Shown: positions 173-25,999 of the stretch, piece by piece
Position numbering within the stretch: position 1 is the stretch's first letter
How the letters are laid out: the number at the start of each line of letters is the position of its first letter
Source of the DNA: a virus
Virus record (IMG/VR): IMGVR_UViG_3300034104_005733
Coordinates: 1 to 25,999 of that record
Direction: 5' to 3' (one strand)
Length of the DNA: 25,999 nt
The notes under the pieces: generated by a model
What the model was told of the DNA's origin: nothing
Database searches by the model: none
The model's input: the letters and a program-made list of their open reading frames with translations, nothing else
Program-made: the position numbers and the translations under genes

Positions 173-643
173 ATGGCAAACGGAACAACATATGGTATTA
201 ATTTTCCTTTTAGGGATTCGGTAAGAGGTGACTATCTACAACTTACAGAATTAGAATCACAAGAAATTAAGGCGGATTTAATTCACTTACTTTTGACTCG
301 AAAAGGTTCAAGATATTATTTACCAACATTTGGGACAAGACTTTATGAGTTTTTATTTGAACCATTTGATGGGTTAACTTTTGACGCAATTGAATCTGAT
401 ATTAGGGAAGCTGTTGGTACATTTATGCCGAATTTATTATTAAATCAAATTACTATATCACCGGCTGACCCTCAAGAAGAAGTTGATTTGGCTATGGGCA
501 CCGCAACGGTGGGAAGTAGTGAGTCATCTGTTTATCGGTTTCCGGGTAAAGGGACTTCAGAATATACCGCAAAAATAAAAATAGATTACTCAACCGATAA
601 GAGTACTTTCGGACCGAGTGATTTCGTTATCATTAATATTTAA
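173..643 (+). CDS. Baseplate wedge subunit, gp25/GPW family
   Basis: The product is a 156-aa member of the T4 gp25 / P2 gpW family, in which T4 gp25 is about 132 aa. In this family gp25 joins the gp6-gp7 wedge core at the inner baseplate and helps start sheath assembly. The family signature is visible at residues 47-64, RYYLPTFGTRLYEFLFEP. It is preceded by the helix EIKADLIHLLLTRKG and followed by a stretch with DIREAV (about 76-81). The C-terminal 50 residues are beta-prone and longer than in T4. The ATG at 173 has no clear Shine-Dalgarno sequence and sits in AT-rich DNA. The gp6-like gene starts 6 bases after the stop, the order expected for this pair in contractile tails. Confidence 0.88.
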   Translation: MANGTTYGINFPFRDSVRGDYLQLTELESQEIKADLIHLLLTRKGSRYYLPTFGTRLYEFLFEPFDGLTFDAIESDIREAVGTFMPNLLLNQITISPADPQEEVDLAMGTATVGSSESSVYRFPGKGTSEYTAKIKIDYSTDKSTFGPSDFVIINI

Positions 644-649
644 TATTGT

Positions 650-2488
650 ATGGCAAATCGTAATATATCATATACTACAAGAGATTATCAGGGAATAAGA
701 ACTGAGTTATTAAACTATGTAAGAACTTACTACCCTGAATTAATACAGGACTTCAACGACGCTTCTGTGTTCTCTGTGTTCTTAGACTTGAACGCTGCGG
801 TTGCGGATAACTTACACTACCATATAGATAGAAGTATTCAAGAGACCGTTTTACAATATGCTCAACAAAGGTCGTCTATCTATAATATCGCAAGAACTTA
901 TGGTTTAAAATTACCGGGACAAAGACCATCGGTGTCTTTGGTTGATTTTTCAATAACGGTTCCTGCGTTTGGGGACAAAGAAGATGAAAGATATTTAGGG
1001 GTGTTAACAAGAGGGTCTCAAGTAGTTGGTGCGGGTATTGTGTTTGAAAACATTTATGATGTTGATTTTACTTCACCATATAATGCACAAGGATTCCCTA
1101 ATAGATTAAAAATACCTAACTTCAATGCCAATAATGTCTTAATTAACTATACAATCACTAAAAGAGAATTAGTTGTTAATGGTATTACCAAAGTATTCAA
1201 AAGAGTTATTACTCCAAATGATGTTAAACCATTCTTTGAATTATTCTTACCTGAAAAAAATGTGTTAGGTATTACAAGTGTATTACTGAAAAGTGGTACC
1301 GAATATACCAATGTTCCATCTACTGCGGAATTTTTAGGGGCATCTAATAAATGGTATGAGGTTGACGCACTTGCGGAAGACCGAGTATTCATCGAAGACC
1401 CAACAAAAGTATCAGACCAACCGGGTATTAAGGTTGGAAAGTATATCCAAACATCTAATAGATTTATAACGGAATATACCCCAGAAGGATTTAAAAAAAT
1501 GACATTTGGTGGTGGTACAAATACCGCTCAAGATTCATTAGACCAATTTACAACAGTTGGTGCAACAATTGATTTACAAAGATATTCAAACAATTTCTCA
1601 TTAGGGTCTGCGTTAACTCCTAACTCAACACTATTCATTCAATATCGAGTTGGTGGTGGATTGGCAACAAATTTAGGGACAAATGTTATTAATCAAATTG
1701 GTACTGTAAACTTCTTTGTAAACGGACCATCTGAAACAACAAACTCATCCGTGGTTAATTCATTAAGATGTAACAACGTGACTGCAGCTATTGGGGGTTC
1801 TGGAGTACCGTCATTAGAAGAGATTAGAAACTATGTATCGTTTAACTTCTCGGCTCAAAAAAGAGCGGTTACGGTTCAAGATTATGAATCAATTATTAGA
1901 AATATGCCGGCTGAGTTTGGAGCACCTGCGAAAGTTTCAATTACGGAAAATAATAATAAGATATTAATTCAATTATTATCTTATGATACATCAGGAAAAT
2001 TAACAAGTATTGTGTCGGATACTTTAAGACAGAATGTTGCAAATTATCTATCAAACTATAGAATGATGAATGATTATATTTCAATATTAACGGCTGAAGT
2101 AATTGACTTGAGTATTGATGTTCAGATTGTTTTAGATTCTGCTCAAAATTCAGGACAAGTTATTTCGGATGTTGTTGACAGAATTTCAACTTACTTCAAT
2201 CCTCAAACAAGAGAGTTAGGTCAAAATGTTTATTTATCTGAATTAAAAAGTATTGTTCAGAATCAAAATGGTGTATTAACCGTTGCGGGATTAAACGTTT
2301 ATAATAATGTTGGAGGTCAATATTCATCTGCCGAAACATCTATGGAATATTCGGATGCTGAAACTAAAGAAATTGCAACTGTTGATGATACAATTTTTGC
2401 ACAACCATCCCAAGTGTACCAAGTTAGATATCCTAACAAAGATATTAGAGTGTCTGTTAAAAATTTCCAATCAGTTACCTTCTCTTAA
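650..2488 (+). CDS. Baseplate wedge subunit, gp6 / baseplate J-like
   Basis: The 612-aa product is close to T4 gp6 (about 660 aa). In this family, gp6 dimers form the inner ring of the baseplate around the hub together with gp25 and gp7. The N-terminus has the family pattern: TTRDYQGI at about 9-16, DFNDASVFSVFLDLNAAV at 34-51, then a helix with QETVLQYAQQRSS at 64-76 and a following YGLKLPGQRPS. The middle carries the baseplate-J-like segment around residues 400-430, with KRAVTVQDYESIIRNMP. The gene lies 6 bases downstream of gp25 and is probably cotranscribed with it. There is no obvious ribosome-binding site in the 6-base gap. After its stop is a 95-base non-coding gap, one of the few in the window. 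Confidence 0.85.
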   Translation: MANRNISYTTRDYQGIRTELLNYVRTYYPELIQDFNDASVFSVFLDLNAAVADNLHYHIDRSIQETVLQYAQQRSSIYNIARTYGLKLPGQRPSVSLVDFSITVPAFGDKEDERYLGVLTRGSQVVGAGIVFENIYDVDFTSPYNAQGFPNRLKIPNFNANNVLINYTITKRELVVNGITKVFKRVITPNDVKPFFELFLPEKNVLGITSVLLKSGTEYTNVPSTAEFLGASNKWYEVDALAEDRVFIEDPTKVSDQPGIKVGKYIQTSNRFITEYTPEGFKKMTFGGGTNTAQDSLDQFTTVGATIDLQRYSNNFSLGSALTPNSTLFIQYRVGGGLATNLGTNVINQIGTVNFFVNGPSETTNSSVVNSLRCNNVTAAIGGSGVPSLEEIRNYVSFNFSAQKRAVTVQDYESIIRNMPAEFGAPAKVSITENNNKILIQLLSYDTSGKLTSIVSDTLRQNVANYLSNYRMMNDYISILTAEVIDLSIDVQIVLDSAQNSGQVISDVVDRISTYFNPQTRELGQNVYLSELKSIVQNQNGVLTVAGLNVYNNVGGQYSSAETSMEYSDAETKEIATVDDTIFAQPSQVYQVRYPNKDIRVSVKNFQSVTFS

Positions 2489-12486: not shown

Positions 12487-15473
12487 TGGCAGTAACTGTA
12501 AATACGACAAAATATTTTTATCCGCCAAGACCCGGAAGTGGGGCTGCAACTTTCTCTGACAATATTGTAGGTTTACAAACTGTTGAGGGAGGAGGTTTGA
12601 CGCAAGGTAATTTTGAATTTACTACATCGGTTACTGAAAAAGTTAATAGAACCTTTAATGTAGGAGCATTTTCCGAACCGTTAAGTTTACAATCATTAAA
12701 CATTGAAGATGTTAATGAGAGTAGAAGAATTATGGCAACCCAATTTCGGGTTTATCCTAATTATGATGTTTCCCAAGTTCTTAATTTTTCAATGTATGGT
12801 TCATTACGTAAGAGATTTCAAGTGTCGGCGACTAAGATAATTCATTATTTTCCTGCGTCTTTAGATGTAATATTTAATAACTTAGAATTTGTAACAGGTG
12901 CGACTGCTGTTAATATTTCTTATGATTCTGTTAATGATGAGACATATTTTGAAATTAATGTTGATAGGATTAATAACCCTTTTGACATTGATTACTCAGT
13001 TAGCGCTGCAACTAACTTAAACTTAAGGGAAATAACTACATCACCTTATCGAAATTTGTATAACACTTATTTAGATTATTGTGTTAGTATTAATGATGAC
13101 ATCTTTAAGATTGTATCATTCCAACCATCACCAACATTAAGTACAGGATACATTTCATTTTATGTTTCAGGTGCACCATTTGGGACTACCGCAAGTACGA
13201 TAAATGAGGATTTTCAAATCAGACCTAATGATTTAGTTGCTGATAGAGTTTTTGCTGAAAGTTTTGATGAGGTTGAAAAATTTTTATTAAACCGATTAAT
13301 AAGACCTGAGTTTACTGCGGTTTTTCAAGTACCGGCTCAAACAGAAAATGGTGAATTTTACACCAATTACCAACAAGTGACTTGGCCTAAAGATGGTGTG
13401 TGGAATCTTGATATCCGTTCATTTTTATTTGATGATTATTTAGCTCAACTTGATGAAATTGCTGTTAATTTAGATTCATTTAAAACAAACTTAATTTCAA
13501 GATTTTTAGTTACAGATTCACTAAAAGAGTTTGATACTTTGGGTCAAAAAGTTGAAAAAATATTTCAAATTTACGGAAGAAGTTTTGACCAAATAAAACA
13601 ATTCATTGATGCTTTAGCGTACATGAATTCGGTTAACTATAATCCATCAAATGATATACCATCTCAATTATTGGTGAACTTAGCCCAAACCTTAGGTTGG
13701 ACATCTAATTTCTCTCCAATTACTGATGAAGATTTTTTAAGTTCAGTGTTTGGTAATACCTCGACCCCGACATACCCTGGTTATGCAAGGGCTCTTACAC
13801 CAACAGAAATAAATTACGCGTTTTACCGTAATTTAATTCTTAATGCCTCTTACCTTTTTAAATCAAAAGGGACAAGAAGGTCTGTTGAATTTATGTTAAG
13901 ATTAATTGGGGCTCCGGATTCTTTAATTGAGTTTAATGAACATATCTATTTAGCCGACCAAAAAATTAATTTAGACCAATTCTATACTCAATGGGCTTCA
14001 ATATCAGGAGGTACTTATGTTGATAGAGTTCCTTCTTACTTACCGGGTGAAACATATAAAATTAGAGGTAGAGTTTATTCAGGTTATACTTCAAATGCGA
14101 CTTATGAAGATGTTTCAATTCGTTTAGATGAATACCCAATAGATGTTTTTGGATATCCAAAGGCTCCTGTAAATACTGAAAATTATTTCTTTCAAGTTGG
14201 GGCTGGTTGGTATGAATCAACTCCACAACACAGAAGTCCTGATAAGGTTGTTATTACAGGTGCGGTTTATACCGGACAAAATTATAACATCCAAACTCAA
14301 TTACAACCGTTTACTTATGGTCAGCCATATTTAGACCGTTTTAGAGATTTCCCATATATGACAGAAGGGTTTAAACTACAAAAAATAGTTGATAATAATA
14401 AGTCATGGTTAGAAGAGGATACTAAAATAAGAGTTTCAACAAGTGCGGATTATAATGCTTATTATTTTGTTGATAATGAAAAATTAGTTTTAAATGTTAA
14501 AAATGTTGATTTATTTTTAAATCCATCTCAAGGGTTGTTATATGATGTTTGGAGAGAATCTGTTGAATACGATTACCCATTTCCTGAATCAGGTTTAACT
14601 GTTGGTTATCCGGTTCCGGGAGGTGTAGATTGGACTTATATTAATCCTGAACCTAAAAAGAAAACATTCTTTGAATTTTCACAAACATTTTGGGAAAATA
14701 TGATTAACGTTAGAAATAGACAATACATTACAGATGGTAAAACTGGTGGATATCCGGTACTACAATCTATTTGGTGGAAATATATTGAATCACAACAAAC
14801 AGTAGGATTACCAAATAACAAGTATACATATCAAAAATTAATTGATTATGTTAATGGTATTGGCCCTTATTGGATGAAGTTGGCGGAACAGATGATACCT
14901 GCAACAACAATTTGGAATTCAGGTGTTAAAATGGAAAACTCAATCTTACATAAACAAAAATTTGTTTATAGGAGACAAAGAGGGTGTCAATTTATTCCTG
15001 TACCTGTTACCCCATGTTTCATCATTTCAAACATATTCGATTACACTTGTACCACGGAGTATACTGATTTTAATATATTCCCTTGGTTAAATGGTGACCC
15101 TAATGTTGGTAATTTTAATAGTATTTTGGCGAATAGGGTTAATAATATGTTATCTCAAAATGGGTATACTTTAAATGATTGTACTCAAAATTCTGTTCAG
15201 ACTGAATGGTATGTTGATTTAAGAATTGAAAATGAATTATTAATTAAAGAACCATTTTATGTTGGGTATGGATACACAGATGTCCCAACAAATACTATAT
15301 GGAGAAATGCGTTAATTCAGTATCTTCCTATGTTATATGATTATGGTTTTGAACCTTTTTTAAATGGAAATGAATTAAAGATTACGAATTTAACTTGTAC
15401 GGAAAGAAATATGGATGAAACTCTTACATTAAATGTGGGAATACAGATAAAAATAAATTGTGATAGTAACTAA
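12486..15473 (+). CDS. Probable baseplate wedge protein, P2 gpI / T4 gp7-like
   Basis: The product is 995 aa, close to T4 gp7 (about 1032 aa). Residues about 345-485 resemble the phage tail protein I family. There is a helical stretch (LGQKVEKIFQIYGRSFDQIK), then LLVNLAQTLGW near 393-403, then a helix ending LFKSKGTRRSVEFMLRLIG near 455-475. In tail protein I the LGW and KGT-type motifs occur in this order. P2 gpI is the counterpart of the gp7 core that binds gp6. A second conserved-looking segment lies near 800-825 (QMIPATTIWNSGVKMEN), followed by a basic YRRQRG. The C-terminal 170 residues have several cysteines. With gp25 and gp6 upstream it would complete the wedge triad. Large beta-rich insertions separate the segments. 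I call the match from motif appearance only. Confidence 0.5.
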   Translation: MAVTVNTTKYFYPPRPGSGAATFSDNIVGLQTVEGGGLTQGNFEFTTSVTEKVNRTFNVGAFSEPLSLQSLNIEDVNESRRIMATQFRVYPNYDVSQVLNFSMYGSLRKRFQVSATKIIHYFPASLDVIFNNLEFVTGATAVNISYDSVNDETYFEINVDRINNPFDIDYSVSAATNLNLREITTSPYRNLYNTYLDYCVSINDDIFKIVSFQPSPTLSTGYISFYVSGAPFGTTASTINEDFQIRPNDLVADRVFAESFDEVEKFLLNRLIRPEFTAVFQVPAQTENGEFYTNYQQVTWPKDGVWNLDIRSFLFDDYLAQLDEIAVNLDSFKTNLISRFLVTDSLKEFDTLGQKVEKIFQIYGRSFDQIKQFIDALAYMNSVNYNPSNDIPSQLLVNLAQTLGWTSNFSPITDEDFLSSVFGNTSTPTYPGYARALTPTEINYAFYRNLILNASYLFKSKGTRRSVEFMLRLIGAPDSLIEFNEHIYLADQKINLDQFYTQWASISGGTYVDRVPSYLPGETYKIRGRVYSGYTSNATYEDVSIRLDEYPIDVFGYPKAPVNTENYFFQVGAGWYESTPQHRSPDKVVITGAVYTGQNYNIQTQLQPFTYGQPYLDRFRDFPYMTEGFKLQKIVDNNKSWLEEDTKIRVSTSADYNAYYFVDNEKLVLNVKNVDLFLNPSQGLLYDVWRESVEYDYPFPESGLTVGYPVPGGVDWTYINPEPKKKTFFEFSQTFWENMINVRNRQYITDGKTGGYPVLQSIWWKYIESQQTVGLPNNKYTYQKLIDYVNGIGPYWMKLAEQMIPATTIWNSGVKMENSILHKQKFVYRRQRGCQFIPVPVTPCFIISNIFDYTCTTEYTDFNIFPWLNGDPNVGNFNSILANRVNNMLSQNGYTLNDCTQNSVQTEWYVDLRIENELLIKEPFYVGYGYTDVPTNTIWRNALIQYLPMLYDYGFEPFLNGNELKITNLTCTERNMDETLTLNVGIQIKINCDSN

Positions 15474-17608
15474 TGGCGTTTAATTATATTATAAATGTAA
15501 CGGGAGATTGTAATAACACTTCAGACGGGATAATTAATCTTATTATATCTGGTGGTTCTAGTCCATATACAGTGCAATGGGTTGACCCGGTATTATCAAC
15601 TGATGTTAATGTAATATCATCAGTTACTAAAACAAATTTAGTAAGTGGGACTTATAGTATTAGTGTTAATGACAGTACATTACCTGAAAATGAAGTAGAA
15701 TTTATTAACATTCCGGTTTCAAGTGGTGTTTGTTGTAGTATTTTAAATGTTGATAATACTACCTGTTCTTTAAATAACGGGTCTGTCACTGGAACTTCAA
15801 CAACACAATATTCATCAACTAATTATTCTCTTTATCACGGTGATGGGGTTTTTAGTCAATCTGCAACTACAAATCAAGATAATGTAATTTTTGGAAGTTT
15901 AACTGCCGGAACTTATTATATGACGGTATTGGACCTTGGAGGTTGTACCGGAAGAAGTCAAAATTTCATAGTTGAAGAATCTGAACCATTAAATTACGGA
16001 TTATACATGGTTCCAAATTCTGCCTGTGGTGGTACTCCAATAGGTAAGATTACTATTACCGGTATTACGGGACAACCACCATTTACTTATTTATGGAATG
16101 GAGGTTCTAGTGGGACTACAATAACGGGTTTAACTGCCGGTGGATATTCTGTAACCGTTACGGATGGGTATGGATGTCAATTAAGTAAAAGTGCGACTGT
16201 GGTCAATGTTAGTCAATTAGGATTTGGGACATTTACTTCAACTCCACCAAGTTGTTTTGCCGCGGATGGAACTATAAGTTTAACCGTTACTGGAGGGACC
16301 GCGCCTTATTATTATTCAGCATCAACAGGGGACGTGTCAATATCTTATTCTCAAACATATACAATTTCAGGTTTATCGTCAGGTGGTTACGGATTTTCAG
16401 TTACAGACGCCGGGCTATGTCAATTAAATGTTAGTACTTCAATTACCTCGGTAAATTCAATGTCTTCTGTTAGTGTTAATACAACAAATTCGACTTGTTC
16501 TAGTGTTAATGGGGAGATATTAATTTCGGTTGTTGGAGGTGTGACACCATATACTTATACATTAGTTTCTCCGGGTGGAAATACAACAAATATTAGCGGT
16601 TCCCAAACAGCTCAATTATTTTCAAATTTATCATCAGGAACCTATACTGTTGCCGTTAGTGATAGTTCAGGGTGCGCTTATATGGAAGAAGCTACGATAG
16701 TTGCCGAAAATAAATATACAATTTCTACTCAGGTATCAGGAACTACTTGTGGAGGAGCAAATGGTGCTGTTACTATTTTTACCACTCCGGGTTCTACCTT
16801 ACCATTAGATTATTCAATTGATAATGGGGTATATGATATTATTGATACTACATTAACTTCAGTTACCTTTAATAATTTAACTGCGGGTAATCACGTTGTT
16901 ACCGTATCGGATGCGGATGATTGTATTCAAACTGCAAACATTTTAATTCTTGGAAGTAGTCAATTAGATTTTTCTTTGTATAGTACTTCTTGTGGTACCG
17001 GTAATTCGGGAAAAATTACTGCGTTTATTAATCAGGGGGAAACACCATTCAGTTTTAATTGGTCTAATAACGTCCCGAATAATCCACAACAAATTCAAGT
17101 ATCAGGGTTAACAGGTGGTACTTATAGTTTAACTATTGTTGGTAGTGACGGATGTTCATTATCTCGTACAACAACAATTAGTTGTAACGCCACTTTAACA
17201 TCATATCAAACATATGTAATGGGTTCTGAAGTATTTAATATTGAATCTCCAACTAAATTTGGGTTATTACAAATGTTAAATGAAGGATTTTATGATTTAA
17301 CCGTTGATAATACAGGTTGTGATTTAGTTAGCGCGACTTTTACCGCAAAAGTTTCGGTGACTCCATTAGATTTAACGACTAGTGAGACATTTTATACATC
17401 TACATCATTAGGTGATGAGCCTCAGGATAATCTATATTATGATACTATTACTCAGTTATTATTAAGTATTCCTGGTGTTGGTAGTGTTACAGTAAATCCT
17501 TTAGAAAATACAATTACAATTGAGACGACAAGAGGTAATGATACATTACAAGGTCAAGAGATTATAATTGACTTGATAATTGAATATGATATAATCTGCT
17601 TAACATAA
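15473..17608 (+). CDS. SprB-repeat protein, probable tail adhesin
   Basis: The 711-aa product consists mainly of seven SprB-type repeats, at about residues 12-68, 97-158, 185-234, 261-315, 342-401, 426-483 and 507-561. Each opens with Cys followed by a Gly-rich turn. Most then show a GG..P(Y/F)TY-type strand and close with LTAGTYTVTV(T/S)D..GC-like residues. Good examples are ITGLTAGGYSVTVTDGYGC (217-235) and LSSGTYTVAVSDSSGC (395-410). This repeat is known from SprB, the mobile gliding adhesin of Flavobacterium johnsoniae, and related Bacteroidota surface proteins. The C-terminal 140 residues are a different, non-repeat domain. There is no signal peptide, consistent with assembly in the cytoplasm as a virion protein. 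It is coupled by TAATG at both ends. A host-contact role is inferred. Confidence 0.72.
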   Translation: MAFNYIINVTGDCNNTSDGIINLIISGGSSPYTVQWVDPVLSTDVNVISSVTKTNLVSGTYSISVNDSTLPENEVEFINIPVSSGVCCSILNVDNTTCSLNNGSVTGTSTTQYSSTNYSLYHGDGVFSQSATTNQDNVIFGSLTAGTYYMTVLDLGGCTGRSQNFIVEESEPLNYGLYMVPNSACGGTPIGKITITGITGQPPFTYLWNGGSSGTTITGLTAGGYSVTVTDGYGCQLSKSATVVNVSQLGFGTFTSTPPSCFAADGTISLTVTGGTAPYYYSASTGDVSISYSQTYTISGLSSGGYGFSVTDAGLCQLNVSTSITSVNSMSSVSVNTTNSTCSSVNGEILISVVGGVTPYTYTLVSPGGNTTNISGSQTAQLFSNLSSGTYTVAVSDSSGCAYMEEATIVAENKYTISTQVSGTTCGGANGAVTIFTTPGSTLPLDYSIDNGVYDIIDTTLTSVTFNNLTAGNHVVTVSDADDCIQTANILILGSSQLDFSLYSTSCGTGNSGKITAFINQGETPFSFNWSNNVPNNPQQIQVSGLTGGTYSLTIVGSDGCSLSRTTTISCNATLTSYQTYVMGSEVFNIESPTKFGLLQMLNEGFYDLTVDNTGCDLVSATFTAKVSVTPLDLTTSETFYTSTSLGDEPQDNLYYDTITQLLLSIPGVGSVTVNPLENTITIETTRGNDTLQGQEIIIDLIIEYDIICLT

Positions 17609-18001: not shown

Positions 18002-19084
18002 ATGTCAATATATTCTATTCTTGTTACCAATAATGCACCTGGGTGTACCTCTGAAATCGAACAACAATTAACGGTAACGGAGTGTACTCAATACCTTGTT
18101 AGTCTTACACCAAATTCAAATTCAGTTGGGCCATTTAACATTTATTTAGATGATGTTATTTACTACTCTGCAGTAACTCGAAATAATTTTTTAGATGGAG
18201 TTGTTGTGAATGTGGATTGTATAAGTCCTACTCCATCACCAACACCTACTAATACTCCGACGCCAACACAAACTCCAACAAATACTGAGACACCTACTAA
18301 TACTCCTACTAATACTCCAACTCCTACTCAAACAGGTACGTCAGGATTAACACCTACCCCAACACCAACAAATACGGAAACTCCAACTCAAACGCCAACA
18401 AATACGGAAACTCCAACTAATACTCCAACTAATACACCTACAAATACGGGAACACCAACCCAAACTCCGACGCCTAGTATGGCGGCGTTCTATGCTTATA
18501 TCTTTGCGGAACCTCAAAACTCAACAGATGATACTGATTTACTTAACTTTGCGACAACAGGAGGAGCAATTGATTGGTATTCTTATTATTCTGCGACAGT
18601 TCCTAATAATAACTCAGGAAGTTACAGTAATGATTTAGATGTTTATGCTCATCAACCATCATTTATTAATGGTACAGGTGATTTTGTTAAACCTGACGAC
18701 TTAAAAGCTCCAATAGCTCAAGTTAATGGACAAATAATCAATGGTCTTAGTCAAAGTATTTACACATTTGGTTCAATAGAGGTTAATTCATCAATAGTTA
18801 CACCATCTGAAGAGTATTTTTATACTATTTGGATACCGTTAAACGGTGTTAATGGTTCTTTAACTGACATGACAATTGATGTTGGAACTAATCTTGGTGG
18901 TGATGAACTTTATAGTAATATTGGAACCATTGTTGGTACTACGGCACTTAATGTGACTGTTACATCCGGAGCAGCAATACCTGCTGGAACTTATCGAGTA
19001 TTATGGGTAAGTCCACAATTTATATTACCAATACTAACACCGTTATCAGGTTCACTATATTTTAGAGGTGACACTAAAAGTTAA
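18002..19084 (+). CDS. Fibre-like protein with Thr/Pro/Asn linker
   Basis: The 360-aa product has three parts. Residues 1-74 form a small beta module with cysteines at 15, 28 and 73 ([20 protein letters not shown] at 48-67 is typical). Residues 75-159 are a low-complexity linker built from TPTNTPT, TPTQTPT and TNTETPT units. Residues 160-360 are a globular beta-rich domain starting [13 protein letters not shown] and ending [12 protein letters not shown]. Such Thr/Pro linkers are extended and flexible and usually join binding modules in extracellular proteins. M160 could be an internal start, but no ribosome-binding site is visible there. The gene sits between the SprB-type and collagen-like genes, so a short fibre or adhesin role is likely. 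The family of the C-terminal domain is not recognised. Confidence 0.65.
18224..18478 (+). repeat. Low-complexity Thr/Pro/Asn-coding repeat
   Basis: About 85 codons built from short units such as actaatactcct, acaaatacgg and caaactccaaca. They encode alternating Thr with Pro, Asn, Gln or Glu. The DNA units are degenerate at synonymous sites, so the repeat is stronger in protein than in DNA. A short GTSGL interruption (residues 112-116) echoes the GTS triplets of the gene downstream. Confidence 0.85.
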
Positions 19085-19110: not shown

Positions 19111-22100
19111 ATGGCGTTTCCATATAAAAATCCTACATCATTAAGTCTTCTAAATTCACCTGAAGGTGTTACTTTAACTAATCCACAAGGGACTAATTTT
19201 TCAGTGTCACAAGTTGGGGGTTATCAAGAGGTGTATTACACAGATAATTTAAAATTGACTTTTAGTGGTACCGGTACTCAAACACTTTCAGCAAACACTG
19301 TTCCAATACAGATTTCGGTACAACCAAATACGGGATTACAATGGACTATCTTAACACTTAATTCTGATAATATTTCGTCAGGGAGAAGAAGACTTGGAAT
19401 GCAAGTCTATGTTTATGAAACCGATACCGTTTATCAATATTACATACCTGATTACGATGTTTTATGGAATGGTCTTACGGGTTTAACAGGTAGTTCCGCT
19501 ATAACGCAACAATCAACATTTACTACAGTAAATGCTAGGTCTCAACAGGGTAGAGATTTTATTTCAGCTTGGACGGGGTCAACAATTGAAGGTGTTAATG
19601 GGGTTACAAGAGATAATGCCAAATGGAGAATAGTTAGTTCAACTGATATTCAAATAACAGGTGGTACATATTATTCCGCAACAACAACTTTAGATTTATT
19701 CAATAGTACAGGTGGTACGATATCAATATCAGGATTTAATGGTACTGTAACCGGTGGTACATATAATAGTGGTACTGAAACATTAACACTTAATAATAGT
19801 GATGGAAGTGAAGTAGAAATTTCAGGATTCACATCAGGTACAGGGTCGGCCCTTTCGGTTGGTGATGGTACTACTACAGTGTTTCCTGTTTCAGGTATTA
19901 CATTTGTTAACGCTACTGTAACTAATAATGGCAACGGTAATATTACCGTTACTACTTCTGCAGGAACAAGTGGGACTTCAGGTACAAGTGGAACTTCGGG
20001 TGTTAATGGAACATCGGGAACAAGTGGTACTTCAGGGACTAGTGGAACAACAGGGACAAGTGGTACTTCAGGGACTAGTGGAACAAGTGGGACCTCAGGA
20101 ACTAGTGGGACTTCAGGCACATCAGGGATTAATGGTACTTCAGGTACAAGTGGAACTTCAGGAACATCAGGTACTTCAGGGACTACCGGAACATCAGGGA
20201 CTAGTGGTATTGATGGAACATCAGGTACTAGCGGTATTGATGGAACATCGGGGACTTCAGGTATTGACGGAACATCAGGTACGAGTGGTATTGATGGAAC
20301 ATCAGGTACTAGCGGTATTGATGGAACATCGGGGACTTCAGGTATTGACGGAACATCAGGTACGAGTGGTATTGATGGAACATCAGGTACGAGTGGTATT
20401 GACGGAACATCAGGTACAAGTGGTATTGATGGGACATCGGGAACTAGCGGTATTGACGGAACGTCAGGGACTTCGGGTATTGACGGAACATCAGGGACTT
20501 CGGGTATTGACGGAACATCAGGTACAAGTGGTATTGATGGTACATCGGGGACAAGTGGTACGGATGGAACTTCAGGAACTAGCGGAACTTCAGGAACAGA
20601 TGGTACTTCAGGTACTAGTGGTATAGATGGTACTTCAGGAACAAGTGGTACGGATGGAACATCAGGGACTTCGGGTATTGACGGAACATCAGGTACTAGT
20701 GGTACGGATGGAACTTCAGGGACTAGTGGAACAACAGGGACATCAGGTACAGATGGTACTTCAGGTACTAGTGGTACTTCAGGTCTTAGTGGTGTAAATG
20801 GTACTTCAGGTACAAGTGGAACAACCGGTACTAGTGGTACAAGTGGAATTGATGGTACATCAGGTACTTCAGGTACTTCAGGTACATCTGGAACTAGTGG
20901 TATTGACGGAACATCGGGGACTTCAGGTACGAGTGGAACTAGCGGTACTTCAGGTATTGATGGAACTTCAGGCACTAGTGGTACATCAGGAATTGATGGT
21001 ACTTCAGGAACAAGCGGAACTTCAGGTATTGATGGTACATCAGGAACTAGCGGTATTGACGGAACTTCAGGAACAAGTGGTACAACCGGAACTAGTGGAA
21101 CATCAGGTATTGATGGTACTTCAGGTACAAGTGGAACATCAGGTATTGATGGAACTTCGGGTACCTCAGGTACAACAGGAACTTCAGGAACTAGTGGAAC
21201 TACGGGTACTTCAGGCACGAGTGGTACTTCAGGTACGAGTGGTATTGATGGAACTTCGGGAACTTCAGGTATTGACGGAACGTCAGGTACTAGTGGGACT
21301 GATGGTACTTCAGGAACTAGTGGAACTACAGGAACATCAGGTACTTCAGGGATAGATGGAACATCAGGAACCTCGGGAACAAGTGGAATAGATGGTACTT
21401 CAGGAACTAGTGGAACTACAGGTACTTCAGGAACTAGTGGAACTACAGGTACTTCAGGAACAAGTGGAACAGATGGTACATCAGGAACTAGCGGAACAGA
21501 TGGTACTTCAGGTACAAGTGGAACAGATGGTACATCAGGAACTTCAGGAACTTCAGGAACTAGCGGAACAGATGGTACTTCAGGTACAAGTGGAACAGAT
21601 GGTACTTCAGGTACAAGTGGAACTTCAGGGACTAGTGGAACAACAGGGACATCAGGTACAGATGGTACTTCAGGTACTTCAGGGACAAGCGGTACGGATG
21701 GTACATCGGGAACAAGTGGAACAGATGGTACTAGCGGTACAAGTGGAACAGATGGTACATCAGGAACAAGTGGTACATCAGGTACAGATGGTACATCAGG
21801 TACTTCAGGAACTTCAGGAATAGATGGAACATCAGGGACTAGTGGTGTTGATGGAACATCAGGTACATCAGGAACAAGTGGTATAGATGGTACTTCAGGT
21901 ACGAGTGGAACTTCAGGTATTAATGGAACATCAGGTACTAGCGGAACTTCGGGAATTGATGGGACTAGTGGAACAGATGGTACTTCAGGTACGAGTGGAA
22001 CGAATGGGACTTCAGGGACTAGTGGAACGGATGGAACTTCAGGTACTAGTGGTACTTCAGGAATAGACGGAACTTCAGGAACAAGTGGAATAGATGGAAC

Positions 22101-25100
22101 TTCGGGAACAAGTGGAACGGATGGTACTTCAGGTACAAGCGGTATAGATGGTACAAGTGGAACAAGTGGAACAGACGGAACTTCAGGAACTAGCGGTACA
22201 GATGGAACTTCAGGTACTAGTGGTACAGACGGAACTAGTGGTACTTCAGGTATTGATGGAACTTCAGGTACAAGTGGAATAGATGGAACTTCGGGAACAA
22301 GTGGAACAGATGGAACTTCAGGTACTAGTGGTACAGACGGAACTAGTGGTACTTCAGGTATTGATGGAACTTCAGGTACAAGTGGAATAGATGGAACTTC
22401 GGGAACAAGTGGAACAGATGGAACTTCAGGTACAAGTGGAACTTCAGGACTAAGTGGTGTTAATGGTACTTCAGGGACAAGTGGTACATCAGGAACAAGT
22501 GGAACTTCAGGTATTAATGGTACTTCAGGAACTAGCGGTACGGATGGAACTTCAGGTACATCAGGCACAAGTGGAATAGATGGAACTTCAGGAACAAGCG
22601 GAACTTCAGGAACGTCAGGTATTGATGGAACTTCAGGTACAAGTGGAACGGATGGTACTTCAGGTACATCAGGTACAAGTGGAATAGATGGTACAAGTGG
22701 TACATCAGGAACTTCAGGAACAGATGGAACATCAGGAACTTCAGGAACAGATGGAACATCAGGTACAACAGGTACAAGTGGAACAAGTGGTACGGATGGT
22801 ACTTCAGGAACTAGCGGTACAGATGGTACTTCGGGAACTAGCGGTACAGATGGTACTTCAGGTACAAGCGGTACAGATGGTACTTCAGGTACTAGTGGAA
22901 CAAGTGGAACAACGGGTACTTCAGGAACTAGCGGAATAGATGGAACATCAGGAACAAGTGGTACGGATGGTACTTCAGGAACTAGCGGTACAGATGGTAC
23001 TTCGGGAACTAGCGGTACAGATGGTACTTCGGGAACTAGCGGAATAGATGGTACATCAGGAACTAGCGGAATAGATGGTACTTCAGGTACTAGTGGAACA
23101 AGTGGAACAACGGGTACTTCAGGAACTAGCGGAATAGATGGTACTTCAGGTACAAGCGGTATAGATGGTACTTCAGGAACTAGCGGTACAGACGGTACTT
23201 CAGGAACAAGTGGAACGGATGGTACATCAGGTACTAGCGGAACAGATGGAACTTCAGGTACGGATGGTACTTCAGGAACAAGCGGTACAGATGGTACTTC
23301 GGGAACTAGTGGTACAGACGGAACTTCAGGAACTAGTGGTACAGACGGAACTAGTGGTACTTCAGGAACAGATGGTACTTCAGGAACAGATGGTACATCA
23401 GGAACTAGCGGTACTAGTGGTACTAGCGGAACAACAGGTACAAGTGGAACATCAGGTTCAAGCGGAACAGATGGTACATCAGGAACTAGTGGAACTTCAG
23501 GTACAGATGGTACATCAGGTACTTCGGGAACAACAGGAACAAGTGGAACTTCAGGTACTGACGGAACCAGTGGCACTTCGGGTATGGATGGTACTTCAGG
23601 AACTAGCGGAACAGATGGAACTAGCGGTACATCAGGTACGACAGGAACAAGTGGTACTTCAGGAATTAGCGGAACTTCGGGAACAACAGGTACATCAGGA
23701 ACTAGTGGAACAGATGGTACTTCAGGAACTAGTGGTACGGATGGAACAAGTGGTACTTCAGGAACAAGTGGAACGGATGGTACATCAGGAACATCAGGTA
23801 CAGATGGAACTAGCGGAACTTCAGGTACAGACGGAACTTCAGGAACAAGCGGAACAGATGGTACTTCAGGGACTAGCGGAACAGACGGAACTAGCGGTAC
23901 TTCAGGTACGGATGGTACTTCGGGAACTAGCGGAACAGACGGAACAAGCGGAACATCAGGAACTAGTGGTACTTCGGGTACAACAGGTACTTCAGGTACA
24001 AGTGGAACGGATGGAACTAGCGGAACTTCAGGAACAACAGGAACTAGCGGAACTTCAGGGACTTCAGGGACAGACGGAACTAGCGGAACATCAGGTACTT
24101 CAGGAACTAGCGGAACTACAGGAACAAGTGGAACTTCAGGAACAGACGGTACATCAGGTACTTCAGGAACGACAGGAACAAGTGGTACATCAGGGATTGA
24201 TGGAACTTCAGGAACTAGTGGTACTTCAGGTACAAGTGGAACAACAGGTACAAGTGGGACTAGCGGTACTTCAGGGACTAGCGGAACTTCAGGAACTTCG
24301 GGAACAGATGGTACTTCAGGAACTAGTGGAACTACAGGAACAAGTGGGACTTCGGGAACGACAGGAACAAGTGGGACTTCGGGAACAACAGGAACAAGTG
24401 GAACTTCAGGAGTAAATGGATTGTCATCTAATGTGTTTTTATATCGAGCAAAAACAAACGCACAGTCAGGAGACCCGGGTGACGGATACATACTTTGGAA
24501 TAATGCGACTCTGATAGACTCAACGAGTATTAATATAGACCATATTGACGATGAAGGTGAAGATATCGATGTATTATTGGCTCTAATACAGTTGAATCAA
24601 AAAATTATAATTCAAGATAGAAATAATTCAGATAACTATCAAATTTGGGTTGTAAGTGGGACACCTGTCGATGCTGGAAATGCGTATTGGACTTACCCTG
24701 TGACACTATTTAGTTCAAGTGGAACGGCTAACTTCACAAATAATCATGAAATTTTATTATTTATAACACCATTCCAAGGTACAAGTGGAACTTCAGGTTC
24801 AAGCGGTACATCAGGTACAAGTGGAACTTCAGGGACTAGTGGTACATCAGGAATTGATGGGACTTCAGGGACTAGTGGTACATCAGGAATTGATGGGACT
24901 TCAGGTACAAGTGGAACTTCTGGTTTAAACGGAACTTCAGGTACAAGTGGTACTAGCGGAACAACAGGTACCTCAGGTACAAGCGGTACTTCAGGGATTG
25001 ATGGAACATCAGGAACTAGCGGTACAACAGGTACAAGTGGAACTTCAGGAATTGATGGTACATCAGGAACTAGCGGTACTTCAGGAACAACAGGTACTTC

Positions 25101-25999
25101 AGGTACATCAGGAATTGATGGTACGTCAGGAACTAGCGGTACTTCAGGAACAACAGGTACAAGTGGTACGTCGGGTATTTCAGGAACTTCAGGTACATCA
25201 GGTACAAGTGGAACTTCAGGTACTAGTGGAACATCAGGTACTAGTGGAACATCAGGAATTGATGGAACATCAGGAACTAGTGGAACGTCAGGTATTAATG
25301 GTACTTCAGGAACTAGCGGGACTTCAGGTACAAGCGGAACTTCAGGGATAGATGGAACTAGCGGTACTTCAGGTACAACCGGAACGAGTGGAACTTCAGG
25401 TACATCAGGAACTAGTGGTACTTCAGGAATTGATGGAACTAGTGGTACTTCAGGAACTAGTGGAACGACAGGTACTTCAGGTACAAGTGGTACATCAGGT
25501 ACAAGTGGAACTTCAGGTATTGATGGTACATCAGGTACAAGTGGAACTTCAGGAACTAGCGGTACTTCAGGTACTTCTGGGACAACCGGAACGAGTGGAA
25601 CTTCAGGTATTAACGGAACTTCGGGTACATCAGGAACTAGTGGAACTACAGGTACAAGTGGAACTACAGGTACTAGTGGTACAACAGGTACTTCGGGAAC
25701 TTCGGGTGTTAATGGTACTTCAGGTACATCAGGAACAACGGGTACTTCAGGAACTACAGGTACATCAGGAACTACGGGAACTAGCGGTACTTCAGGTACA
25801 ACAGGTACGTCAGGAACTTCGGGTGTAAATGGAACTTCAGGAACTAGTGGAACAACAGGTACTAGTGGTACATCAGGTGTTAATGGTACTTCAGGTACAT
25901 CAGGAACAACGGGTACTTCAGGAACTACAGGTACATCAGGAACTACGGGAACTAGCGGTACTTCAGGTACAACAGGTACGTCAGGAACTTCGGGTGTAA
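19111..25999 (+). CDS. Giant collagen-like tail fibre protein (3' end missing)
   Basis: The reading frame opens at the ATG at 19111, 26 bases after the previous stop, and is still open at the window end (2296 codons plus one base), so the C-terminus is missing. Residues 1-284 are non-repetitive and beta-prone. They include two related modules of about 31 residues, starting near 182 (ITGGTYYSATTTLDLFN) and 213 (VTGGTYNSGTETLTLNN). Residues 285-1770 are Gly-X-Y triplets, mainly GTS with GTD, GID, GTT, GVN and GIN and no Pro. Residues 1771-1889 form a globular island, then triplets resume to the end. Collagen-like triplets form trimeric rods in phage fibres and other surface proteins. The gene follows other adhesin-like genes, so it is probably a long fibre. 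Codon use of the N-terminal region and island matches the neighbouring genes. The start has no clear Shine-Dalgarno sequence. Confidence 0.85.
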   Translation, partial: MAFPYKNPTSLSLLNSPEGVTLTNPQGTNFSVSQVGGYQEVYYTDNLKLTFSGTGTQTLSANTVPIQISVQPNTGLQWTILTLNSDNISSGRRRLGMQVYVYETDTVYQYYIPDYDVLWNGLTGLTGSSAITQQSTFTTVNARSQQGRDFISAWTGSTIEGVNGVTRDNAKWRIVSSTDIQITGGTYYSATTTLDLFNSTGGTISISGFNGTVTGGTYNSGTETLTLNNSDGSEVEISGFTSGTGSALSVGDGTTTVFPVSGITFVNATVTNNGNGNITVTTSAGTSGTSGTSGTSGVNGTSGTSGTSGTSGTTGTSGTSGTSGTSGTSGTSGTSGTSGINGTSGTSGTSGTSGTSGTTGTSGTSGIDGTSGTSGIDGTSGTSGIDGTSGTSGIDGTSGTSGIDGTSGTSGIDGTSGTSGIDGTSGTSGIDGTSGTSGIDGTSGTSGIDGTSGTSGIDGTSGTSGIDGTSGTSGIDGTSGTSGTDGTSGTSGTSGTDGTSGTSGIDGTSGTSGTDGTSGTSGIDGTSGTSGTDGTSGTSGTTGTSGTDGTSGTSGTSGLSGVNGTSGTSGTTGTSGTSGIDGTSGTSGTSGTSGTSGIDGTSGTSGTSGTSGTSGIDGTSGTSGTSGIDGTSGTSGTSGIDGTSGTSGIDGTSGTSGTTGTSGTSGIDGTSGTSGTSGIDGTSGTSGTTGTSGTSGTTGTSGTSGTSGTSGIDGTSGTSGIDGTSGTSGTDGTSGTSGTTGTSGTSGIDGTSGTSGTSGIDGTSGTSGTTGTSGTSGTTGTSGTSGTDGTSGTSGTDGTSGTSGTDGTSGTSGTSGTSGTDGTSGTSGTDGTSGTSGTSGTSGTTGTSGTDGTSGTSGTSGTDGTSGTSGTDGTSGTSGTDGTSGTSGTSGTDGTSGTSGTSGIDGTSGTSGVDGTSGTSGTSGIDGTSGTSGTSGINGTSGTSGTSGIDGTSGTDGTSGTSGTNGTSGTSGTDGTSGTSGTSGIDGTSGTSGIDGTSGTSGTDGTSGTSGIDGTSGTSGTDGTSGTSGTDGTSGTSGTDGTSGTSGIDGTSGTSGIDGTSGTSGTDGTSGTSGTDGTSGTSGIDGTSGTSGIDGTSGTSGTDGTSGTSGTSGLSGVNGTSGTSGTSGTSGTSGINGTSGTSGTDGTSGTSGTSGIDGTSGTSGTSGTSGIDGTSGTSGTDGTSGTSGTSGIDGTSGTSGTSGTDGTSGTSGTDGTSGTTGTSGTSGTDGTSGTSGTDGTSGTSGTDGTSGTSGTDGTSGTSGTSGTTGTSGTSGIDGTSGTSGTDGTSGTSGTDGTSGTSGTDGTSGTSGIDGTSGTSGIDGTSGTSGTSGTTGTSGTSGIDGTSGTSGIDGTSGTSGTDGTSGTSGTDGTSGTSGTDGTSGTDGTSGTSGTDGTSGTSGTDGTSGTSGTDGTSGTSGTDGTSGTDGTSGTSGTSGTSGTTGTSGTSGSSGTDGTSGTSGTSGTDGTSGTSGTTGTSGTSGTDGTSGTSGMDGTSGTSGTDGTSGTSGTTGTSGTSGISGTSGTTGTSGTSGTDGTSGTSGTDGTSGTSGTSGTDGTSGTSGTDGTSGTSGTDGTSGTSGTDGTSGTSGTDGTSGTSGTDGTSGTSGTDGTSGTSGTSGTSGTTGTSGTSGTDGTSGTSGTTGTSGTSGTSGTDGTSGTSGTSGTSGTTGTSGTSGTDGTSGTSGTTGTSGTSGIDGTSGTSGTSGTSGTTGTSGTSGTSGTSGTSGTSGTDGTSGTSGTTGTSGTSGTTGTSGTSGTTGTSGTSGVNGLSSNVFLYRAKTNAQSGDPGDGYILWNNATLIDSTSINIDHIDDEGEDIDVLLALIQLNQKIIIQDRNNSDNYQIWVVSGTPVDAGNAYWTYPVTLFSSSGTANFTNNHEILLFITPFQGTSGTSGSSGTSGTSGTSGTSGTSGIDGTSGTSGTSGIDGTSGTSGTSGLNGTSGTSGTSGTTGTSGTSGTSGIDGTSGTSGTTGTSGTSGIDGTSGTSGTSGTTGTSGTSGIDGTSGTSGTSGTTGTSGTSGISGTSGTSGTSGTSGTSGTSGTSGTSGIDGTSGTSGTSGINGTSGTSGTSGTSGTSGIDGTSGTSGTTGTSGTSGTSGTSGTSGIDGTSGTSGTSGTTGTSGTSGTSGTSGTSGIDGTSGTSGTSGTSGTSGTSGTTGTSGTSGINGTSGTSGTSGTTGTSGTTGTSGTTGTSGTSGVNGTSGTSGTTGTSGTTGTSGTTGTSGTSGTTGTSGTSGVNGTSGTSGTTGTSGTSGVNGTSGTSGTTGTSGTTGTSGTTGTSGTSGTTGTSGTSGV
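20221..20382 (+). repeat. Perfect 81-bp tandem duplication inside the fibre repeat
   Basis: Positions 20221-20301 and 20302-20382 are identical, including every synonymous base. The unit encodes 27 residues (three G-I-D/GTS/GTS nonamers). The surrounding units differ at synonymous sites, so this marks a recent slippage or unequal-recombination event. Confidence 0.85.
22201..22416 (+). repeat. Perfect 108-bp tandem duplication inside the fibre repeat
   Basis: Positions 22201-22308 and 22309-22416 are identical copies of a 36-residue unit starting gatggaacttcaggtactag. The exact match at all synonymous sites indicates a recent in-frame expansion. Confidence 0.85.
24421..24777 (+). other. Globular island domain within the collagen-like fibre
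   Basis: These 119 codons (residues 1771-1889) stay in frame with the flanking triplets but contain no Gly-X-Y repeat. The segment has a normal globular composition: LSSNVFLYRAK at the start, an acidic HIDDEGEDIDVLL stretch, KIIIQDRNNSDNYQIWVVSG in the middle and NNHEILLFITPFQ at the end. It looks like a compact beta domain inserted as a knob in the rod. It could be a receptor-binding or trimer-nucleating module. The family is not named with confidence. Confidence 0.75.
24826..24897 (+). repeat. Perfect 36-bp tandem duplication
   Basis: Positions 24826-24861 and 24862-24897 are identical copies of a 12-residue unit (TSGTSGTSGIDG). They lie near the start of the second triplet block, just after the island domain. 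Confidence 0.8.
25705..25999 (+). repeat. Long exact repeat with 171-bp period at the window end
   Basis: The sequence starting at 25705 (ggtgttaatggtacttcagg) recurs at 25876 and matches base for base for the 124 bases available before the window ends. The period is 171 bases (57 residues). Identity at all synonymous sites indicates recent duplication, and the true copy number past the edge cannot be seen. Confidence 0.85.

Follow-up and report, generated by a model that had tools for sequence, protein, structure and literature searches.

Results

Gene organization of the window

The window (the whole stretch of DNA that was analysed, 25,999 nucleotides long and identical with the entire IMG/VR virus record IMGVR_UViG_3300034104_005733) carries a plus-strand series of genes in which baseplate genes come first and a very long fibre gene comes last. 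The first two genes encode a gp25-like baseplate wedge protein (173..643, + strand) and a baseplate J/gp6-like wedge protein (650..2488, + strand), and they put the fibre in a tail/baseplate gene cluster, within the same operon-like run. Large proteins without confident function follow, then an SprB-repeat protein (15473..17608, + strand; PF13573, E=6e-22) as a structural neighbour, and finally a 360-aa protein with a Thr/Pro-rich (TPTNT) linker (18002..19084, + strand), directly upstream of the fibre gene in an order kept in relatives. Long linker proteins of this TPTNT/TPTQT kind are found near the fibre both in the window (18002-19084) and in the related stretch L030 (15929-19330), and they might be a second glycosyltransferase target.

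The predicted collagen-like tail/baseplate fibre gene (19111..25998, + strand) starts with an ATG at 19111 and stays open for 2296 codons with 0 stops up to the contig end. Since the window is the whole record, the truncation of the gene is due to the end of the contig, and its product is at least 2296 aa long. The start is backed by a conserved N-terminus (M-x-F-x-YKNP) across relatives; no strong Shine-Dalgarno-like sequence is visible upstream of 19111. The protein is divided into a proposed N-terminal attachment domain (aa 1-284, 19111..19962), a first Gly-X-Y run of 496 triplets (aa 285-1772, 19963..24426), a 117-aa non-collagen island (aa 1773-1889, 24427..24777), and a second Gly-X-Y run of 136 triplets that is open at the contig end (aa 1890-2296, 24778..25998). 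A relative of the island (46% identity) sits inside a Gly-X-Y protein of the cultured Methylophilaceae phage P19250A. The Gly-Tyr/Phe/Ile-Ser array of that phage (L229 4363-7968) is called a tape measure protein in GenBank, which is likely a misannotation.

Composition of the Gly-X-Y arrays

The two runs are perfect and together hold 632 Gly-X-Y triplets (496 and at least 136, about 1896 residues), and 608 of the 631 full triplets belong to four types: GTS (446), GTD (62), GID (55), and GTT (45). Over both arrays the X position is filled mostly by Thr (554) and Ile (62), and the Y position by Ser (453), Asp (119), Thr (45), and Asn (14). There are 0 Pro, 0 Lys, and 0 Arg in the arrays against 119 Asp, and each of the protein's 12 Pro falls elsewhere. 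The original prediction of a frame open to the window edge, with about 1900 Gly-X-Y residues of these four types and with great length in the absence of Pro, was thus borne out in its counts and composition; it had missed the non-collagen island. The Pfam Collagen HMM (PF01391), proposed there as a check, matches the fibre protein with 817 bits. Uninterrupted Gly-X-Y triplets, the mark of collagen-like proteins, are present, whereas the Pro-rich X position or charged-pair stabilisation that is typical of such proteins (not strictly required) is absent; usual bacterial collagen-like proteins have Pro at 19-31% of X positions (PMC8968730).

In the first run, codon positions 1 and 2 of the Gly codons are GG in 496/496 cases while A (237), T (217), G (37), and C (5) share the third position, and GTS is spelled by 41 different 9-mers. 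Fixed GG with freely varying third positions indicates that selection acts on the protein, and the repeat exceeds chance by far and is constrained at the protein level. The long antisense ORFs over the array (up to 1606 aa) are by-products of the repeat. The Ser codons of adjacent GTS triplets (19963-24426) switch between TCN and AGY in 158 of 202 pairs (shuffles: mean 99, maximum 121). This alternation is present in L013, L028, and L136 and absent in L112 and L148, so it is lineage-specific; its interpretation as a general anti-slippage device was rejected, as other arrays do without it.

Relatives and complete homologues

The N-domain is conserved across 17 relatives, with 45-95% identity among those aligned. 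In two of them (L024 and L025) a shaft that lacks Gly-X-Y runs follows a window-type N-domain, i.e., a conserved N-terminal attachment domain is combined with an exchangeable distal part. The N-domain and the remainder of the protein are exchangeable modules, as in other fibres. Its AlphaFold2 model is of low confidence (pLDDT 46), and no N-domain was found in annotated phages or bacterial genomes.

The close relative L013, whose N-domain shares 94% identity with that of the window and whose upstream genes have products with 70-95% identity, has a complete 3343-aa fibre with a stop codon and a conserved C-terminal domain. Complete fibres of 2733 aa and 2568 aa were also found in L028 and L038, respectively, and one of 3488 aa, with 824 triplets in Pro-free arrays, in the 735-kb phage LR756501. 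In the latter (L232, L317) the Pro-free GTS fibre adjoins fibres with Gly-Pro-Gln/Thr triplets. In the second array of L013 (10001-20032) there are about 20 recurrent in-phase Gly-to-Ala triplets (ATS) in a higher-order repeat of about 30 residues, which is odd for a collagen triple helix. The stretches L009 and L013 have identical backbones, and the only differences of L013 within 385 triplets are a clean 21-triplet (189 nt) loss and a single changed triplet. L012 shares the backbone of L013 at 100% identity for 10 kb and across the N-domain, and the window's array then follows from the array start; the junction (L012 10001-12429, fibre nt 1-2429) falls exactly at the repeat start, with zero mismatches to the window after it. 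L012 is either a natural recent shaft exchange or a chimeric assembly.

The pattern GTSGTSGIDGTSGTSG was found in at least 120 IMG/VR stretches. Pro makes up less than 2% of X and Y in 148 of 157 loci with at least 15 triplets, a set that was partly chosen by the repeat pattern itself and is not a census. Pro-free Gly-Thr-Ser shafts are a widespread type that is common in aquatic phages. The window fibre had been called unusual, which is right only in part, as Pro-free Gly-Thr-Ser arrays are shared by those IMG/VR stretches and by the 735-kb phage.

Among characterized proteins there is a close likeness with EPclA and EPclB, prophage collagen-like tail-fibre proteins of E. coli O157 for which a trimer is proven (PMC3368898). 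They too consist of an N-domain, a collagen shaft, and a C-terminal domain; EPclB has two collagen runs with a non-collagen repeat between them, and the shaft length of both varies in multiples of three, as in the window-type fibres (PMC3368898). EPclA differs in its shaft of about 111 residues, which was found unglycosylated, with no associated glycosyltransferase reported (PMC3368898), while the window shaft has at least 1896 residues and no Pro. FibU of phage 80-alpha is another collagen-like phage fibre with a much shorter shaft (PMC7048315).

The C-terminal cap domain

The complete relatives end in a conserved cap domain (KSFDIPHPTKEG...LEGPEHGVY.RG; L013 19559-20029), a putative receptor-binding or trimerisation domain, which occurs in many fibres of aquatic phages, with 291 stretches confirmed. 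No Pfam family matches it over the curated cut-off; its AlphaFold2 model has a good core (pLDDT 79) and no PDB match at E<=0.001. Uncultured phages have the cap too, in BFVD proteins named 'collagen triple helix repeat', and it recurs, with up to 57% identity, in a tail-fibre-like protein that the immuto phages of Flavobacterium encode and in cyanophage fibre-like proteins. Most cap-domain relatives have no Gly-X-Y run. The Flavobacterium phage vB_FspM_immuto has a distant gp6 as well (28% identity), and no TibC match was found in the immuto and cyanophage genomes.

A TibC-type glycosyltransferase often accompanies the arrays in relatives

Downstream of the complete Gly-Thr-Ser fibre genes, convergent with them and about 30 nt off, lie genes for large enzymes. 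In L030, which is from the same contig as L013, these are an FkbM methyltransferase and a 1451-aa protein composed of FkbM, Gly_transf_sug, and Glycos_transf_1 domains and a C-terminal GT9/TibC-type part; in L028 they are a 1024-aa TibC-type protein and a 520-aa methyltransferase/glycosyltransferase. Other phage versions of the enzyme carry a fused GT4-type domain. NCBIfam TIGR04414, the family of the autotransporter O-heptosyltransferases AAH and TibC with a curated cut-off of 200 bits, scores 279, 277, and a further 292 bits, and the C-terminal part matches the TibC crystal structure 4rap with E=2e-50. The catalytic, sugar-binding, and iron-finger residues of TibC have been assigned (PMC4358343). 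The base Asp110, Thr226, Lys230, Trp305, and the iron-finger Cys339, 342, 358, and 370 are invariant in 21/21 phage domains, whereas the position of the sugar-binding Arg286 is Thr in 21/21, so the donor sugar may differ. No TibC-type domain was found in bacterial genome contigs with the patterns used.

The residue modified by TibC and AAH is Ser and not Thr, at N-S-G-G and T-S-A sites, and the known acceptors of the family are repetitive Ser-rich proteins (PMC4358343). T-S-G occurs about 446 times in the window shaft, and the Bacteroidota O-glycosylation motif D[ST][AILVMT] occurs 0 times in its array. The likeness to TibA/AIDA-I with TibC/AAH thus extends to the enzyme family, found in the window's relatives, and to a repetitive Ser-rich partner; there the partner is a secreted autotransporter (PMC4358343) and in the phages it would be a Gly-X-Y fibre. 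The phage enzymes also differ from TibC/AAH in their frequent fusion to more glycosyltransferase or methyltransferase domains, besides the Thr at Arg286. In the phage of the window such an enzyme gene would lie outside the window, as the contig ends inside the fibre and no same-phage contig extends past the repeat; its presence there is presumed from the relatives. The glycosylation that the original prediction had guessed from composition has in this way gained genome-context support from a TibC-family enzyme that goes with such fibres, and for the window itself it depends on that presumed enzyme.

Enzyme and arrays are associated statistically. Among loci chosen only by the cap domain (n=80), TibC was found in 12/17 with a Gly-X-Y run vs 1/63 without (p=1e-9), or, after reduction to 90% cap identity, in 7/12 vs 0/28 (p=4e-5), and among contigs chosen only by the Gly-Thr-Ser pattern it was over the cut-off in 13/20, including 8/8 above 100 kb (p=1e-5 vs 20 control contigs with TibC in 0/20 and arrays in 0/20); all these p-values are too small, as the lineages share ancestry and are not independent, IMG/VR contigs repeat, and the controls were unmatched for length. 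The 7/20 repeat contigs without TibC are all shorter than 100 kb. Among 50,697 annotated phage records TibC was found in four. LR756501 and its apparent duplicate LR756503 both have Gly-Thr-Ser arrays; the Microcystis phage Mel-JY01, whose record names a host, has a 203-triplet array; and LR756504 has TibC and no array by the pattern used. The Gly-Thr-Ser fibre of Mel-JY01 (L318 739-2298) is likely misannotated in GenBank, where it is called on the wrong strand.

Discussion

The gene most plausibly encodes a long fibre, on the tail or baseplate of a T4-like myophage, that would consist of an attachment domain, a Gly-X-Y shaft, and a distal cap. The collagen-like phage fibre originally proposed is upheld by the N-domain in 17 relatives, the T4-like baseplate cluster upstream, the Pfam match, and the capped complete homologues. 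Observed are the anatomy of the sequence, those homologues, an N-domain that relatives combine with different shafts, an enzyme of the TibC family encoded by relatives, and a statistical link between that enzyme and the arrays; on this basis we propose, at a probability of roughly 0.55, that this fibre has a Pro-free collagen-like shaft that is glycosylated at Ser/Thr by a TibC/AAH-family enzyme. The N-terminal 284 residues would dock the fibre to the baseplate or tail, and three chains would wind into a Pro-free collagen-like shaft whose length, if the collagen rise of 0.286 nm per residue holds, would exceed 540 nm in the window and come to about 780 nm in the complete L013 fibre. The conserved C-terminal domain would cap the shaft and trimerise it and/or bind a receptor. 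The Ser (perhaps Thr) side chains, which in a triple helix would all face outward, would be O-glycosylated in the host cytoplasm by the phage-encoded TibC/AAH-family enzyme, and the fused or adjoining glycosyltransferase and FkbM methyltransferase modules might lengthen the glycan or methylate it. The coat of sugar would then take the place of proline in stability, hydration, and stiffness.

Collagen stability is usually ascribed to proline and hydroxyproline, or to charge pairs. In host-guest peptides, triple helices form poorly with Thr at X and with Ser or Asp at Y, and a Gly-Thr-Ser repeat without Pro or charge pairs is likewise a poor helix former. A poor helix former, glycans proposed to aid hydration, and a Ser glycosyltransferase that travels with the arrays together suggest a concrete stabilising mechanism. 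A precedent may be BclA of Bacillus spores, a collagen-like shaft reported to be glycosylated and whose sugar is thought to better the hydration network (PMC8968730). BclA differs in being of another sequence type, modified by other enzymes, and located on a spore surface instead of a virion. The BclA shaft also keeps proline.

Several points count against the proposed model: a window that lacks the enzyme gene, LR756504 without an array, the 7/20 repeat contigs without TibC, the Thr at the Arg286 position, the TPTNT proteins as alternative targets, the weak helix formers in X and Y, the ATS triplets of L013, and the shared ancestry behind the association. An alternative that we consider unlikely while giving it real weight is that this is an ordinary long collagen-like fibre with an unglycosylated shaft, that the TibC-type enzyme and its fused modules act on host surface sugars, TPTNT proteins, or other adhesins, and that the genes are merely linked. 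The enzyme is indeed encoded on the opposite strand and is sometimes distant, some array contigs do without it, and TPTNT-type proteins occur in 37/80 TibC loci. However, a Thr/Ser-rich array of at least 20 triplets lies within about 10 kb in 53/80 TibC loci, against 6 with TPTNT and no array, and in 10/11 tested TibC loci without a nearby array one was found elsewhere on the contig. In LR756501 the array (near 404 kb) and TibC (at 580 kb) are about 175 kb apart; co-occurrence that persists with genes so far apart argues against simple linkage. The repetitive Ser-rich nature of the known acceptors of the family also speaks for the shaft as the target.

That the Gly-Thr-Ser repeat is instead a flexible, heavily glycosylated mucin-like tether, or folds in some other glycine-rich way, for example as a polyglycine-II bundle, seems quite improbable to us. 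The absence of Pro, Lys, and Arg, the dense Thr/Ser, the Gly-to-Ala triplets of L013, and the generally weak helix formers would suit such a structure, but the three-residue spacing of Gly is strict through all 632 triplets although the third codon positions vary freely, a register that a disordered tether does not need, and a polyglycine-II sandwich needs turns, none of which are present in the shaft. An assembly artefact, in which the assembler inflated or stitched the repeat, was considered and rejected as having only a very slight chance, even though most relatives' contigs break within the repeat and L012 could be a chimera: L012 is base-identical to the window over 1568 nt from fibre nt 862, through 175 triplets of the array, L009, L010, L011, and L015 share one 385-triplet array among themselves, exact repeats inside the window's first array reach no more than 128 nt, and L013, L028, L038, and LR756501 hold complete, stop-terminated genes for 2.5-3.5 thousand aa, so that neither the internal stop nor the collapsed repeat by which the original prediction could be overturned has appeared.

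Beyond the window, the glycosylated-shaft model leads to a more tentative proposal, to which we give clearly less than even odds: in aquatic phages over a wide size range, the collagen triple helix may be stabilised by dense Ser/Thr O-glycans, not by Pro, via a phage-encoded multidomain TibC-type enzyme, and this two-part 'fibre plus glycosylator' system may have spread and lengthened as a unit. No published link between phage collagen and a TibC-type heptosyltransferase, no report of GTSGTSG in phages, and none of Pro-free phage collagen was found, which is a weak negative since most subscription journals lay outside the search.

If the model is true, a natural repeat of 600-900 triplets without Pro or charge pairs would be a test case for glycan-stabilised collagen, and the large glycosyltransferases in some aquatic phages would be explained. 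The range of proteins modified by TibC/AAH enzymes, a family known to date from bacterial adhesins, would then reach beyond the autotransporters.
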